A stretch of 64,000 bases of DNA from Dechloromonas denitrificans (lineage in GTDB: Bacteria; Pseudomonadota; Gammaproteobacteria; Burkholderiales; Rhodocyclaceae). The first letter of the stretch is position 1. Every line of letters begins with the position of its first letter. Both the position numbers and the translations under genes were made by a program. Positions 3 through 4,957 of the stretch are shown here, piece by piece. The stretch spans positions 2,728,001 to 2,792,000 of the forward strand of contig NZ_CP075185.1 of NCBI RefSeq assembly GCF_020510685.1. The letters are read 5' to 3'. The notes under the pieces are model-generated. The model was not told the origin of the DNA. It ran no database searches and saw only the letters and a program-made list of their open reading frames with translations.

Positions 3-1412
3 TCAGCGTTCGGCGACAGCGTCGCCATCGCTGCGAAACATGGCCGGGGTCAGATCGTGTTTTTGCAGCAGCCGGTAGAACTCGGTACGGTTGCGGTCGG
101 CAATCCGGGCCGCATCGGCGACACTGCCATCGGTCAGCTTGAGGAGTTGAACCAGATAGTTGCGCTCGAAACGCTGCTTCGCGTCGGCATAGCTCAGCGC
201 CTCCATGGCCGGCACCCGCAGGGCGCGCTGCGCCAGCGAGAGCGGAATGAGCGGTGTCGATGTCAGCGCGCAGCTTTGCTCGACGACATTGTAGAGCTGC
301 CGAACGTTGCCCGGCCAGGCCGCAGTAGCCAGTGCCTCGAGCGCATCCGGCGCAAAGCCGGTAATCGACTTGCCATACTTGGCCGCAATGAGCTGGACGA
401 AATGGGCGGCCAGCAACGGGATGTCTTCGCGCCGCTCTTCCAGGCGTGGCAGCGTCAATGACACAACGTCGAGCCGGTAATACAGGTCTTCCCGGAACTG
501 TCCCTGCGCCATCGCGGCATCAAGATCGCGATGCGTCGCTGAAAGCAGACGGACATCGACAGGCTCGGAATGCGTCGCCCCGACCGGTCGCACGACCCGC
601 TCCTGAAGAACGCGCAGCAACTTGACCTGCAGGGAGAGCGGCATGTCACCGATTTCATCGAGAAACAGCGTCCCGCCATTGGCCGCCTGAATCAGCCCGA
701 CCCGGTTGTTGCCGGCACCGGTGAAGGCCCCTTTGACGTGTCCGAACAGTTCGGACTCCAGCAATTGTTCGGGAATGGCGCCGCAATTGATGGCGATGAA
801 AGGCCCCTTGCCGCGCGGACTGGCGCGGTGGATTGCCCGAGCCAGGACCTCCTTGCCGGTGCCGCTTTCGCCGCGGATCAGCACACTGGCTTCGGAAGCA
901 GCAACCATCCGCGCTTCAGCCATCAGCTCCGCCATCTGGCTGCTACGAAAAACGATACCGTCCTGCCAATCTTCGGAACGACTACCGGCCCCGCTGCCGA
1001 CGGACGCGTCGACCGGCAGGGCCGGGGCCGACAGCTGCAGCGCCTGGTCGATTTTTCCGAGCAGTATCTGACTGTCGAAAGGCTTGGTCAGATAGCCGAA
1101 TACCCCTCGCGAAGTGGCATCGACCGCGTCCGGAATCGAGCCGTGGGCCGTCAGCAGGATGACCGGCAAGCTGGGACGCGTCGCCCGGATTTCCTCGTAC
1201 AGCGCCAGACCGTCACGGCCCGGCAAACGAACATCGCTGATCACGATACGCGGCGGATCGACCGCCAGGCGAGCCAAGGCCTCCTCGGCCGAACCCGCCC
1301 CCGACACCCGAAAGCCACGGGCCCGCAGACGCATCGAGAGCAGGCGGAGAATATCCTCGTCATCATCGACGACCAGAATATGGGCGCCGGCCATTTCCGA
1401 TTCCGCCTTCAC
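3..1412 (-). CDS. glrR: Sigma-54-dependent response regulator GlrR (QseF)
   Basis: Cytoplasmic enhancer-binding regulator that activates sigma-54 promoters after phosphorylation by GlrK. The order of domains is an N-terminal receiver (about residues 10-125, acidic pocket DDD near 16-18, phospho-acceptor Asp60 in SDVRLP, Lys110), a central AAA+ domain with Walker A GESGTGKE (181-188) and the sigma-54 contact loop GAFTGA (228-233), and a C-terminal Fis-type helix-turn-helix (about 430-460). The length fits the family. The start is a GTG overlapping the upstream QseG stop (GTGA), with AGGAG seven bases before it; an in-frame ATG at 1394 is the alternative. It is third in a glrK-qseG-glrR operon, the same order as in enterobacteria. 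GlrR assignment rather than another NtrC-family member rests on this context and on the TGTC-N10-GACA sites near the operon. Confidence 0.9.
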   Translation of the reverse strand: MKAESEMAGAHILVVDDDEDILRLLSMRLRARGFRVSGAGSAEEALARLAVDPPRIVISDVRLPGRDGLALYEEIRATRPSLPVILLTAHGSIPDAVDATSRGVFGYLTKPFDSQILLGKIDQALQLSAPALPVDASVGSGAGSRSEDWQDGIVFRSSQMAELMAEARMVAASEASVLIRGESGTGKEVLARAIHRASPRGKGPFIAINCGAIPEQLLESELFGHVKGAFTGAGNNRVGLIQAANGGTLFLDEIGDMPLSLQVKLLRVLQERVVRPVGATHSEPVDVRLLSATHRDLDAAMAQGQFREDLYYRLDVVSLTLPRLEERREDIPLLAAHFVQLIAAKYGKSITGFAPDALEALATAAWPGNVRQLYNVVEQSCALTSTPLIPLSLAQRALRVPAMEALSYADAKQRFERNYLVQLLKLTDGSVADAARIADRNRTEFYRLLQKHDLTPAMFRSDGDAVAER

Positions 1413-1960
1413 CGGACAGCTCCTGCCGACCGGCCGGAGCGCGAACGCGCCGGCAAGGTGCGTTCGATATCGGCCAGACCATCGAGCTTTTCCTGCAACT
1501 CGACCGCCTTGCGCTGGCTTTCCTTGAACTGCTGAGTCTGACGGTCGACCTGCCCTTCCAGTTTCTGGCGCTCGCTGTAATTGTCGGCCAGCATGCGGGC
1601 CAGCGGCTGCAGACCGATGGCCGCCGGATCGCTGGATTTCAGCAAGTGATCGAGCAAGCCGAGCGATTTGCCAAGATCCTGCGGGGCCCGGGGGTGACCA
1701 AACAGCATGGCCATCCGGAGCTGGGTATTGGGATTCGGCGGCAGCGCCGCCAGCACCATGCGCTCCCGCGCCAGTTCGGCTGGCGTCATGCGGGAAAGCA
1801 ATTGGTAATAGGCAAGGACGGGAAGTGCTCCCGGCTCGTCGAAACGGAGCGGACGCGGTGCCGGAGGACTAACGGCGCACGCGGCCAGCGAGAGGCTCAG
1901 GACAAGCGCCGAAATGCTCGGCCACCATGCCGAACGGTCGCGCCAGAAATTACTGTTCAT
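1409..1960 (-). CDS. qseG: QseG-like outer-membrane lipoprotein
   Basis: Small lipoprotein between the kinase and regulator genes. The start chosen is ATG at 1960, which gives a signal peptide ending in the lipobox LAAC; the longer upstream reading frame has no signal. The mature protein is mostly helical, with a C-terminal stretch (about residues 130-170) rich in Gln, Lys and Glu that looks like a coiled coil, and ends in a basic tail. In enterobacteria QseG/YfhG is an outer-membrane lipoprotein that interacts with the kinase QseE/GlrK and tunes its activity; sequence conservation is weak, so the name comes mainly from position and lipoprotein character. It overlaps the kinase stop by 11 bases and the glrR start by 4, so translation is probably coupled. 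Confidence 0.7.
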   Translation of the reverse strand: MNSNFWRDRSAWWPSISALVLSLSLAACAVSPPAPRPLRFDEPGALPVLAYYQLLSRMTPAELARERMVLAALPPNPNTQLRMAMLFGHPRAPQDLGKSLGLLDHLLKSSDPAAIGLQPLARMLADNYSERQKLEGQVDRQTQQFKESQRKAVELQEKLDGLADIERTLPARSRSGRSAGAVR

Positions 1961-3356
1961 CAGGTAGTTCCACACAAAAATGAGCGCCTTTCTCGGCGGG
2001 AAGCAGTGAGACCTTACCGCCCATCGCACGGACGAGGTCACGAACGATGGAAAGCCCTACCCCGCTCCCCTGGCGTTGTGCCGGCGCCTGCCGCTGGCCC
2101 TGAACGAAGGGATCGAAAATTCGCAGCCGGTCCTCGCTGGCAACACCGGGCCCCTGGTCGATGCATTCAAAATGCAGGCAGGCGTCGGAGCGGGTAACCA
2201 CGAGCCGGACCTCGCCACCTTCGGGGCTGAAGTCGATTGCATTCGACAGCAGATTATCAAGTACCACGGCCATTTTTTCGGCGTCGAGCATTACGTTGTC
2301 CAGTTTGAGTGCTTCGACCAGCACCTTCAAATGCCGCGATTGAGCATGAAAGTCCCGACGTTGCACGACACTGGCCATGAATTTCGGCAAGTCGACACGC
2401 GCCAGGCGAAGCCGACGCGCCTCGAATGCTGCGGCATTGAGGCTGAGCAGGCTCTCGATTTGTTGCTGCAAGCTGACGACATTGTGCTGAAGAATATCGA
2501 CGACCTCGCGCTGATTGCCGGCCAACGGCCCCGGCACTTCTTCCCGAAGCAGCGCAACCCCCTCCTTCAGCGCGGTGAGCGGTGTTTTCAGCTCATGCGA
2601 GACATGCCGCAAGGTCCTTTCGCGGTCCGTTTCCAGTTCGGACAAGCGCTGCCTGAGCCAGTCAAGGCGTACGCCGAGCTGCCGGAGGTCAGCCGGCCCG
2701 CCAACGGTAATGGTCTCATTGAAGCGATTGGCGCCAAGCCGGATGATCGCCTGCTCCAGTTGCCGGACCGGCCGGACCAGCCACCAGCCCATGACCAGCG
2801 CGACCAGAAAGGCGCCGGCCAGGGCAAGCGCAATCTGCCCCCCGAGATGCAGGCGGTTCGCCTCCAGATCTTCGAGAAGGCGGGTTTTCTCGGCCTCTAT
2901 CCAGCGCTGCCCGGCCTGTTTCAGCAATCCATTCAGCTCAACCAGACGGCCCAGCAAAGGCGCCAGCTCGCCCTTGCTGATCCGGTTCTCGAGTCCTCCC
3001 TTCAGCGCTTCGGAAACCATCCGCCAACCGCCGAGCAAAGGCGACAAAGGTTCTGCCGCCAGCGTATCCAGTCGGTCGACGAGGGCAAGAGAGAGCGCCA
3101 GATGTTCGTCAAAGCGTTGGCGAAAAGCCGGGTCGTCGAGCACCAGATATTGACGGGCACTCCGCTCGATATCGATGGTGCGCTCCGCCAGTTCCTGAAT
3201 TGCCGCAGTCAACTGGATCGCCTGCTCGCTGCTCGTTCGACTCTGCGCGACCAGACGCTCGACGACCAGCCAACTTCGCAACGCAGCCCCGCCCAGGAGC
3301 AGAACGATGACGGCAAAGCCGATCAGCATGCCCAGACGAAATGAAATTCGGTTCAT
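1950..3356 (-). CDS. glrK: Sensor histidine kinase GlrK (QseE)
   Basis: Inner-membrane sensor kinase, partner of GlrR. From ATG 3356 the protein has 468 residues: TM1 at about 10-30, a helical periplasmic sensor region (30-172), TM2 at about 173-195, a HAMP linker, the dimerisation/phospho-acceptor motif SHELKT with His254, and a HATPase_c domain with an N box (LDNLLSNAIDFSPEGG), a G1 box (DQGPGV) and a G2 box (GSGVGLSI). The 500-residue reading frame begins 32 codons earlier, but those residues lie before TM1 without a recognisable domain, so the internal ATG is preferred. First gene of the glrK-qseG-glrR operon and divergent from the bactofilin gene; the shared 357-base region carries GlrR-type sites that could also act on this operon. 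In enterobacteria the signal is envelope stress; the ligand here is unknown. Confidence 0.9.
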   Translation of the reverse strand: MNRISFRLGMLIGFAVIVLLLGGAALRSWLVVERLVAQSRTSSEQAIQLTAAIQELAERTIDIERSARQYLVLDDPAFRQRFDEHLALSLALVDRLDTLAAEPLSPLLGGWRMVSEALKGGLENRISKGELAPLLGRLVELNGLLKQAGQRWIEAEKTRLLEDLEANRLHLGGQIALALAGAFLVALVMGWWLVRPVRQLEQAIIRLGANRFNETITVGGPADLRQLGVRLDWLRQRLSELETDRERTLRHVSHELKTPLTALKEGVALLREEVPGPLAGNQREVVDILQHNVVSLQQQIESLLSLNAAAFEARRLRLARVDLPKFMASVVQRRDFHAQSRHLKVLVEALKLDNVMLDAEKMAVVLDNLLSNAIDFSPEGGEVRLVVTRSDACLHFECIDQGPGVASEDRLRIFDPFVQGQRQAPAQRQGSGVGLSIVRDLVRAMGGKVSLLPAEKGAHFCVELPDEQ

Positions 3357-3491
3357 CCCAGAGGTTTTCCTGAAAATTGAAGTGTACACCGCAGCGGCGC
3401 CTTCTCGAGGAGTAACGCCGGCACAGAAAACCACTAACCCTGAGCTACACAAAACAAACTTAACAACATAAAATCAATTACTTACAAAACA

Positions 3492-3509
3492 TGTCGCCAA
3501 ATTGCGACA
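3492..3509. promoter_or_regulatory. GlrR-type enhancer site 1 (TGTC-N10-GACA)
   Basis: The 18-base sequence TGTCGCCAAATTGCGACA matches the TGTC-N10-GACA site known for GlrR at enterobacterial glmY/glmZ promoters; the symmetry here extends to TGTCGC-N6-GCGACA. Its centre lies about 175 bases upstream of the predicted sigma-54 start, a normal enhancer distance. Confidence 0.8.
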
Positions 3510-3557
3510 AGCTGCAGTCACAGCCTATCCGGTTTTCCGGGAAAAGCGAAAAATACC

Positions 3558-3575
3558 TGTCGCCAAACAGCGACA
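3558..3575. promoter_or_regulatory. GlrR-type enhancer site 2 (TGTC-N10-GACA)
   Basis: TGTCGCCAAACAGCGACA, the same extended palindrome TGTCGC-N6-GCGACA as site 1, with the centre 66 bases further downstream and about 110 bases before the predicted transcription start. Two matched palindromes in one short AT-rich spacer make chance unlikely and suit a hexamerising AAA+ activator. Confidence 0.8.
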
Positions 3576-3649
3576 TATCCCCCGTCGGATTAAAGAACCC
3601 AAATTAGATAACTCATGCAACGACATGTTTTATATGGAAATAATCCTCA

Positions 3650-3665
3650 TGGCACGGTTATCGCA
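3650..3665 (+). promoter_or_regulatory. Sigma-54 promoter of the bactofilin gene
   Basis: TGGCACGGTTATCGCA matches the sigma-54 consensus TGGCACG-N4-TTGCW at all but one defined position (TC in place of TT), with the essential GG at -24 and GC at -12 correctly spaced. The predicted start is near 3676, which leaves a leader of about 38 bases with the GAGGA ribosome site before ATG 3714. Confidence 0.85.
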
Positions 3666-3713
3666 TTTGACCCTCGACGATTCATCATGCCAACCACTCC
3701 AGCGAGGAATTTC

Positions 3714-4292
3714 ATGTTCAACAAACCCAGCCTAGGCAATCGTAACGACCTGATCACCCGCAAGGATGTCAGTTCCGTGCTCGGCAACAACGCGGCGGTT
3801 AACAATGCGGATCTCACCACGAAGAGTGCACTCGAAGCCGCAGCCAAGCAGCCGGCCGCCGTCAGCAAAGCGCCGCAGGTCGAGCCGGCCGGCAATCCCG
3901 AAAACGTCATGGGAGCCCGCCTGATCGTCGGTCCCGACGTCAAGCTGAAAGGGGCGGAAATTCTCGATTGCGATACGCTGGTCGTCGAAGGTCGCGTCGA
4001 AGCGACCATGGATAGCCGTGTCATCCGGATTGCCGACCAGGGCTCGTTTGCCGGTAAAGTCAGTATCGATATCGCCGAGATTCATGGCGCCTTCGAAGGC
4101 GAACTAACCGCCCGCTCCCAACTGATCATTCACGCCACCGGCCGGGTCAGCGGCAAGATCCGTTACGGCAAGCTGGTCATCGACGAAGGCGGTGAACTAT
4201 GTGGCGATATCAACGCCATCTCGGCAGAAAATCGTACTCCGCCTCGCCCAGTCAGCGACTTTGTGCCAACCCTCAACGCAGTTGCTGGTTGA
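3714..4292 (+). CDS. Bactofilin (polymer-forming cytoskeletal protein)
   Basis: A 192-residue protein with a central bactofilin domain (about residues 65-170): a series of short beta repeats with alternating hydrophobic and Gly residues (GARLIVGPDVKLKGAEI, LVVEGRVEA, GKVSIDIAEIHGAFEGEL, SGKIRYGKLVID), flanked by polar, low-complexity tails. Bactofilins form nucleotide-independent filaments at the inner membrane and organise peptidoglycan enzymes, stalks or polar complexes. The start is ATG 3714, five bases after GAGGA; the longer frame upstream would run across the sigma-54 promoter and is rejected. It is followed after 32 bases by a FeeM-type acyltransferase gene. Regulation by GlrR and sigma-54 is predicted from the upstream sites. 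Which bactofilin subtype (BacA, CcmA) it is cannot be told here. Confidence 0.9.
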   Translation: MFNKPSLGNRNDLITRKDVSSVLGNNAAVNNADLTTKSALEAAAKQPAAVSKAPQVEPAGNPENVMGARLIVGPDVKLKGAEILDCDTLVVEGRVEATMDSRVIRIADQGSFAGKVSIDIAEIHGAFEGELTARSQLIIHATGRVSGKIRYGKLVIDEGGELCGDINAISAENRTPPRPVSDFVPTLNAVAG

Positions 4293-4317
4293 ATCAACTC
4301 ACCTCCCGACATAGAAT
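4289..4317 (+). promoter_or_regulatory. Sigma-70-type promoter for the FeeM-like gene
   Basis: TTGAAT (4289-4294), a 17-base spacer and TAGAAT (4312-4317). The -10 element ends seven bases before ATG 4325, so the transcript would begin at or next to the start codon (leaderless). No Shine-Dalgarno sequence is visible, which agrees with that. Confidence 0.55.
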
Positions 4318-4324
4318 CCGTGCC

Positions 4325-4957
4325 ATGCAAAGTGCATCACTCCATTACACTGCCGGCAAGCAAGCTCCCGTTATAGCGACATTGTCGTCAACGACGCGGC
4401 TCCGCTCGGCGGGACTGGTCGTTCGCCGGGTCAGCAGCACCGAGGAAAGACTTGCCTCTGACCTGCTCGTTCGCCGCATGTATGCCTGGCGCGGCTATCG
4501 TGCCGAACCCCTCGCGCCGTCGCCGGGTCACGCCGAGCGGATCACGATTGCCGCCTGGCAGGATGATGAACTGGCCGCAACCCTGACCCTGTCGCCCGAC
4601 AACGGTACGGAGCTTCTTTGCGAAACGCTGTACAGGGACGAAATTGCCGCGCTACGCGCAAAGCAGCTGCGGATTTGCGAATACTCCCGGCTGGCTACCG
4701 ATCCGGAATTCAGTTCGCCGGCCCTTCTGCAGAAACTTTTCCACACCGCGTACTTGCTGTCACGTTCGCACTTCGACGCGAGCGACGCGGTCGTCGAAGT
4801 CAATCCGCGGCATAGCCGCTATTACCAGCGCGAATGGGGCTTCTCGCGCATCGGGCCATTGCGCATTTGCCCGCGAGTTGAAGCGCCGGCCATCCTGCTT
4901 CATCGCAACCTGCAGCACACGATCCCCGAATCATTCGCCGCCGCAAAGGCCGCCTAA
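4325..4957 (+). CDS. FeeM-type N-acyl amino acid synthase family protein
   Basis: A 210-residue cytoplasmic protein with the FeeM-like, GNAT-related fold seen in N-acyl amino acid synthases and exosortase-associated acyltransferases: an N-terminal segment LLVRRMYAWRGY, a strand pair around TIAAWQDDELAATLTL, the characteristic EYSRLATDPEF (about residue 120), then VVEVNPRHSRYYQREWGF near 160-177. Characterised relatives move long acyl chains from acyl-ACP to amino acids such as tyrosine; the substrate here is not known. The start at 4325 is chosen because earlier codons overlap the bactofilin gene. It lies 32 bases after the bactofilin stop, could be read from the sigma-54 promoter, and also has its own sigma-70-like promoter. 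No exosortase or PEP-CTERM gene is seen in the window. Confidence 0.75.
   Translation: MQSASLHYTAGKQAPVIATLSSTTRLRSAGLVVRRVSSTEERLASDLLVRRMYAWRGYRAEPLAPSPGHAERITIAAWQDDELAATLTLSPDNGTELLCETLYRDEIAALRAKQLRICEYSRLATDPEFSSPALLQKLFHTAYLLSRSHFDASDAVVEVNPRHSRYYQREWGFSRIGPLRICPRVEAPAILLHRNLQHTIPESFAAAKAA

Follow-up and report, generated by a model that had tools for sequence, protein, structure and literature searches.

The question raised by this locus is what turns a bactofilin gene on, a subject on which little literature was found among open-licence PMC articles and for which the locus offers a concrete regulator, sites and promoter. The window, the whole 64,000-nucleotide stretch of Dechloromonas denitrificans DNA that was analysed, carries a bactofilin gene (3714–4292, plus strand) whose 192-residue product has the N-terminus MFNKPS and matches the Pfam Bactofilin family (PF04519, E = 1.2e-17; 64.4 bits against a cut-off of 27.9), a domain shared with Caulobacter BacA and other bactofilins. 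No solved structural relative of the protein was found by sequence at E = 0.001. Bactofilins are described, in the part of the source available, as membrane-associated filaments that are important in morphogenesis and carry an N-terminal MFSK-type targeting peptide (PMC12448750). The MF-x-K start of the window protein resembles the membrane-targeting sequence MFSKQAKS, with the consensus MFSKKKK, given in the same part of that source (PMC12448750). This start is kept in most of 13 aligned bactofilin sequences chosen from the loci described below, in which M1 and F2 are invariant and K4 and P5 nearly so.

Upstream of the gene lie two predicted GlrR upstream activating sites, site 1 (TGTCGCCAAATTGCGACA, 3492–3509) and site 2 (TGTCGCCAAACAGCGACA, 3558–3575), both of which match TGTC-N10-GACA without a mismatch. 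They are 66 bp apart start to start, with 48 bases in between; the two palindromes 66 bases apart that the first-pass annotation had reported are therefore confirmed, both exact, with the distance counted from start to start. A predicted sigma-54 (−24/−12) promoter (TGGCACGGTTATCGCA, 3650–3665, plus strand) lies 92 bp downstream of where site 2 starts and is directed at the bactofilin ATG at 3714. It has the GG-N10-GC spacing, and its one mismatch to TGGCAC-N5-TTGCW is a C for T in the −12 element, in agreement with the near-perfect promoter toward bactofilin proposed earlier. Transcription is predicted to start at about 3676, some 38 nt upstream of the ATG. An IHF-like site (AATCAATTACTTA, 3472–3484) stands 20 bp before site 1, on the glrK side of the site pair, and fits without a mismatch the IHF consensus, which we take to be WATCAANNNNTTR.

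On the other side of the sites, the gene order glrK-qseG-glrR is present and divergent from bactofilin, as had been noted at first pass. The sensor-kinase gene glrK (qseE; 1950–3356, minus strand) encodes HAMP, HisKA and HATPase_c domains, and its product is 33% identical to E. coli GlrK. The qseG-like lipoprotein gene (1409–2041, minus strand; start codon uncertain) was called from its position, a lipobox-like LAAC and the tail motif L-x-DIER-x-L-x-x-R, which is common to its product and E. coli QseG; the protein gave no Pfam match and no blastp match to E. coli QseG. The response-regulator gene glrR (qseF; 3–1412, minus strand) encodes a sigma-54 activator with Response_reg and Sigma54_activat domains. 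The locus is very probably a GlrR-dependent sigma-54 promoter with bactofilin as its output, a reading that is built on sequence comparison.

The single elements, each taken alone, are not clearly beyond chance. Two single sites were observed in the window against 0.63 expected, and at least two occurred in 14 of 100 shuffles; the whole genome holds 51 matches to TGTC-N10-GACA against 28 for a reversed control, and the window holds five promoter-like matches against 2.46 expected. The site pair is beyond chance. The paired-site pattern was found in 27 of 60 genomes (own included) and in none of the 60 with the reversed control; across the order it was found in 58 of 300 genomes, with two of 300 for the control. 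One site with a correctly spaced promoter occurred in 40 of the 60 genomes, some of these being transporter-type sites or apparent chance matches, against nine of 60 for the reversed control and two of 60 when the promoter was mis-spaced by one base.

Conservation was followed in 36 genus genomes, counting the own one. A close orthologue of the bactofilin (E of 4.3e-62 or lower) is present in 26; three of the other ten have only a weak bactofilin match (20–25% identity) and were left uncounted. All 26 orthologous loci have the two sites, spaced 64–66 bp apart and with no more than one mismatch per site, which settles that the site-pair observation is real; both are exact at 18 loci, and one mismatch in one site is seen at the other eight. 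A GG-N10-GC promoter (at most three mismatches) lies between −54 and −69 from the ATG at all 26 loci. The −12 element reads TCGC instead of TTGC in 26/26, and the bactofilin promoter may therefore be weak. In the genus alignment, information is confined to the site arms (1.60 and 1.73 bits for site 1, 1.96 and 1.70 bits for site 2) and the promoter (mean 1.66 bits); the site centres hold 0.72–0.79 bits, the DNA around the sites 0.48–0.62 and the DNA between the elements 0.48–0.54. A candidate IHF-like match just before site 1 (at most one mismatch, scored by pattern match to that consensus) was found at 23 of the 26 loci, and was absent in L019, L033 and L040 at the same tolerance. A gene for a FeeM-type N-acyltransferase follows the window bactofilin (4325–4957, plus strand; Pfam FeeM, E = 2.8e-42, scored on the longer frame 4199–4957) and is possibly co-transcribed with it; such a gene lies near bactofilin at 18 of the 26 loci, which makes it an optional partner.

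A similarity search with the window bactofilin gave 165 named loci, of which the best 80 were read, many of them from the same genomes as the 26. The pair and the promoter are present in 75 of these best 80, from Azonexus, Dechloromonas, Propionivibrio, Accumulibacter, Thauera and Pseudothauera; NCBI taxonomy places Dechloromonas in the order Rhodocyclales and lists Accumulibacter as incertae sedis. L214 retains the promoter and site 2 but departs from the motif at two positions of site 1; the remaining four loci (L255, L285, L286 and L288) fit neither arrangement as defined. The upstream DNA of L255 lies beyond the contig end and L288 has an irregular layout; GlrR is present in the genomes of L286 and L288, and no GlrR match was found in those of L255 and of L285, a locus without sites. 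Scanned on both strands (1.29 Mb), the 80 loci contain 84 instances of pair plus promoter. The bactofilin gene accounts for 78 of these, in 75 loci; of the remaining six, four lie close to the end of glrR, on the far side of the locus. The distances from site 2 to the promoter (n = 78) fall at 91–93 (61), 81–82 (7), 104–106 (5), 111–113 (4) and 71 bp (1), classes that are very roughly one helical turn apart. The conservation check proposed at first pass, a search for both sites with their spacing before bactofilin genes adjacent to glrRK, was thus run and passed (26/26 genus loci, 75/80 named loci), and comparative genomics gives good support to the proposal that GlrR and sigma-54 control bactofilin.

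The closest known counterpart is E. coli glmY. In E. coli, the sigma-54 promoter of glmY is activated by QseF (GlrR), which acts at TGT-N12-ACA sites and is assisted by IHF, according to the part of the source available (PMC6075780). In E. coli K-12, TGTCGCTTTCTGGCGACA and TGTCTCTTTTTAGCGACA lie 63 bp apart and are followed by TGGCACAGTTACTGCA, with a third site further upstream. Both loci therefore have a TGTC-N10-GACA pair, a sigma-54 promoter downstream of it and an adjoining glrK-qseG-glrR cluster. They differ in the distance between the start of site 2 and the promoter (107 bp in E. coli, 92 bp in Dechloromonas), and in that a perfect IHF match stands between the E. coli sites, whereas the Dechloromonas match stands before site 1. 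The output differs as well: in E. coli it is a small RNA whose gene lies in tandem with glrK, and in Dechloromonas a bactofilin whose gene diverges from glrK. A sigma-70 promoter, as at E. coli glmY, is possible at the bactofilin gene too. The E. coli rpoE promoter is alike in having an envelope-related target and the same regulator, QseF, in the available part of the source (PMC6075780); its target is a sigma factor, and the comparison is taken from the literature.

That the E. coli counterpart is a small-RNA gene raises the alternative that here too the sigma-54 promoter serves a short regulatory RNA, with bactofilin transcribed from a promoter of its own. Some other GlrR-type pairs are indeed followed by about 350–400 nt without an obvious reading frame, but the window leaves only some 38 nt between the predicted start and the ATG. 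Rfam gave no match in the 64-kb window, and the GlmY/GlmZ family (RF00083) gave none in the own genome, the one genome on which the absence of GlmY/GlmZ rests, with positive control matches in E. coli. A GlmY-like RNA at the locus was rejected on these results, and a short RNA as the product of the promoter is extremely unlikely.

The protein that binds the pair is, we infer, GlrR, from its family, its adjacency, its recognition helix and its co-occurrence with the target. Window GlrR is 55.7% identical to E. coli GlrR over 451 residues and carries GAFTGA and RNRTEFY, a recognition helix like that of E. coli; among 42 GlrR-like loci the helix reads RNRTEFY in 38 and RNRTELY in two, with two giving no match in the motif search. 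PRK15115 is the best of 105 NCBIfam families for the protein, by about 190 bits, at a score (592 bits) under the cut-off of 763, and the protein is accordingly called a relative of GlrR, not a family member by that cut-off. The own genome has one RpoN match.

A different NtrC-family activator, for example a PrsR-type regulator, might bind the pair with GlrR a mere neighbour. NtrC-family paralogues are numerous, the model for the PEP-CTERM response regulator also picks up window GlrR (381 bits), and TGTC-N10-GACA with a promoter stands before a transporter-like gene in two genomes (G030 and G032) that have no GlrR match at E = 1e-120, from which it follows that GlrR is not the only user of the core motif. 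Against this, pairs retrieved by pattern are often near GlrR-like genes even when the target differs, such a pair stands at glmY in E. coli, whose GlrR shares the RNRTEFY helix, and regulator and target co-occur in the genus. A GlrR match is present in 30 of the 36 genomes, among them 25 of the 26 with bactofilin (the match in G025 being partial, at a contig end); in G009, the sole bactofilin genome without one, glrK adjoins bactofilin, and five of the ten genomes without bactofilin are also without GlrR. Another activator at the pair is therefore unlikely, and GlrR is retained as the predicted binder.

Five genomes have GlrR and no bactofilin orthologue (G004, G013, G022, G031 and G033). A further alternative is that the sites serve mainly to autoregulate the divergent glrK-qseG-glrR operon. 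The sites do lie in the shared intergenic region, with the IHF-like element on the glrK side, and the first-pass annotation had itself suggested, as a side idea, that they could act on glrK. However, no sigma-54 promoter facing glrK is present in the window: the sole minus-strand GG-N10-GC match in 3357–3700 has five mismatches (window scanned). In G004 and G022, where glrR is also kept, glrK adjoins ettA with neither bactofilin nor a site in between (G022 has a one-mismatch site match inside ettA). Conversely, at six named loci the pair and promoter are kept at bactofilin with no GlrK match within the locus DNA searched, and all six genomes carry GlrR elsewhere. With glrK persisting where the sites are gone, the side idea is not supported, and autoregulation as the main role of the pair is very unlikely.

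The pattern of loss speaks for bactofilin as the target of the pair. In G013, glrK is present without a bactofilin orthologue, and no site was found in the 320 bp before it; G031 also has no orthologue, and its two sites, still 66 bp apart, are decayed. The sites and bactofilin are lost together in part of the genus. Loss of the sites in close relatives that keep the genes, which the first-pass annotation had said would speak against its proposal, is weakly seen, at L214 as described above; joint loss is the more frequent outcome, with three bactofilin-less genomes having glrK without sites and a fourth having decayed sites. The link is looser in other families, where GlrR and a bactofilin relative occur without an exact pair in G040, G055, G056 and G059.

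A bactofilin relative (E = 1e-40 or better) was found in seven of 24 genomes from other families. One exact site and a perfect promoter adjoin glrK in G048, and in G045 the pair is present with no promoter recognised. G055, G056 and G059 are without the pair at this gene, and in G040 no pair was found anywhere in the genome; in G042 neither a GlrR match nor a pair was found. The link between bactofilin and the enhancer is therefore not universal, and these exceptions take a little off the confidence in the main reading.

The same arrangement was also sought by DNA pattern alone, and 27 of the 58 pair-bearing genomes of the order were read. A GlrR-like gene lies near the pair at 15 of these 27 loci (two by weak matches), and a window-type bactofilin was found at none. 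Class-wide, pair plus promoter occurred in 16 of 377 genomes, with none for the reversed control; besides the own locus, eight of the 15 have a GlrR- or GlrK-like gene, and no relative of the window bactofilin was found at any of the 15 at E = 1e-4. In this sample, then, the bactofilin link occurs in Rhodocyclales, Accumulibacter and further relatives.

Other genes occupy the position behind the pair in other families of the order. Pair and promoter precede OpgG (MdoG) in L183 and L187, and family-2 glycosyltransferases, which we take to be OpgH, in L184, L198, L200 and L203. They also precede a BON-like protein scoring just below the cut-off in L194, cyanophycin synthetase-like genes in L205 and L206 and an acyltransferase in L204. 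Taken together, pairs stand before OpgG/OpgH-like genes in L183, L184, L187, L188 and L198–L203, mostly near a GlrR-like gene (the calls in L188, L199, L201 and L202 were made by eye, the rest by Pfam), and it is possible that GlrR-type pairs control periplasmic glucans in these families.

A second target is likely in the genus itself, judging from the DNA upstream of a gene for a small secreted BON-domain protein that directly follows glrR, outside the window (own genome 2727480–2727818; L164:6481–6819). Among 29 glrR loci of the genus, 18 have a single site 70–83 bp before a sigma-54 promoter, in most cases with one mismatch in the site; three loci, the own one included, have a site without a promoter at two mismatches, the own promoter having three, and eight have no fitting site.

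On balance, we lean slightly towards a broader reading, in which the glrKR-linked enhancer and its sigma-54 promoter form an exchangeable output port: the regulator, the pair and a spacing of about 63–69 bp would stay, and the gene behind them would be swapped. The swapped genes would be glmY RNA in E. coli, OpgG/OpgH-like or BON genes in other families of the order, and bactofilin in Rhodocyclales and Accumulibacter, where a cytoskeletal filament would therefore be a main direct output of this envelope-stress system, in the place that the GlmY/GlmZ arm holds in E. coli. This suggests a role of GlrKR outside enterobacteria in the direct control of envelope genes, through similar enhancers that have come to stand before different targets.

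The elements, their geometry and conservation, the joint loss of sites and bactofilin in some members of the genus and the like enhancer at E. coli glmY come directly from the sequence, and from them a mechanism can be proposed. GlrK, together with the QseG-like lipoprotein, would phosphorylate GlrR, and GlrR~P would bind both palindromes, 66 bp apart. IHF-type bending or looping would then bring the bound GlrR onto sigma-54 RNA polymerase at 3650–3665, and ATP hydrolysis would open the promoter, with transcription from near 3676; expression would thus depend on GlrR and RpoN. Bactofilin would be made, often with the FeeM-type acyltransferase. The signal, 'envelope or peptidoglycan stress' in the first-pass annotation, is taken over from E. 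coli by analogy: envelope stress sensed by GlrK would raise the bactofilin scaffold, and the filament would probably aid membrane-attached envelope or wall machinery during that stress. The regulator, sites and promoter are testable in culturable Dechloromonas, Azonexus or Thauera.

Activation of bactofilin by GlrR~P and sigma-54 in Rhodocyclales and Accumulibacter, bacteria of fresh water and sludge, would apparently be an undescribed output of a known system. Neither the regulator nor the promoter type is new; what the literature searched does not appear to describe is the target, and the way in which targets change behind similar enhancers. No paper was found in the open-licence PMC literature on GlrR or QseF together with bactofilin (a report elsewhere is possible), or on GlrR in betaproteobacteria. 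The nearest case is that of Rhodobacter sphaeroides, in which the available part of the source places an NtrX peak near an M23 peptidase-bactofilin operon (PMC7240162). Here too a response regulator of the NtrC family binds close to a gene for bactofilin, but the regulator is a different one, and the bactofilin values in the part of the table available, 0.06 and 0.99, which we read as log change and p, indicate no clear effect of NtrX on bactofilin expression (PMC7240162).

Several further arrangements were observed. A variant site (mostly TGTCTGCC..GGACA) with a sigma-54 promoter stands before a transporter-like gene, itself without a Pfam match, in several members of the genus (L163, L139, L140, L146, L157 and L165). 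Because this variant also occurs in G030 and G032, which gave no GlrR match, the view that all TGTC-N10-GACA sites belong to GlrR was rejected, and the variant is probably served by another activator. The own genome has a second pair (4160083–4160165; L046:4083–4165), 65 bp apart and with a sigma-54-like promoter on the minus strand, before a gene for a 119-residue protein without a Pfam match; small genes resembling it follow the pairs in L167, L172 and L175. The second bactofilin gene of the own genome has no site (at most one mismatch) in the 1.5 kb upstream of it. In G033 (L169:1–1546), a pair with one mismatch in site 1 and a promoter precede a gene with a bactofilin-like start that runs into a FeeM-type acyltransferase. 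The assembly is fragmentary; the gene may be a genuine fusion or an assembly artefact. Finally, in L286 (2525–3036) and L177 a pair and promoter are followed by about 350–400 nt without an obvious reading frame, possibly a small RNA or a long leader.
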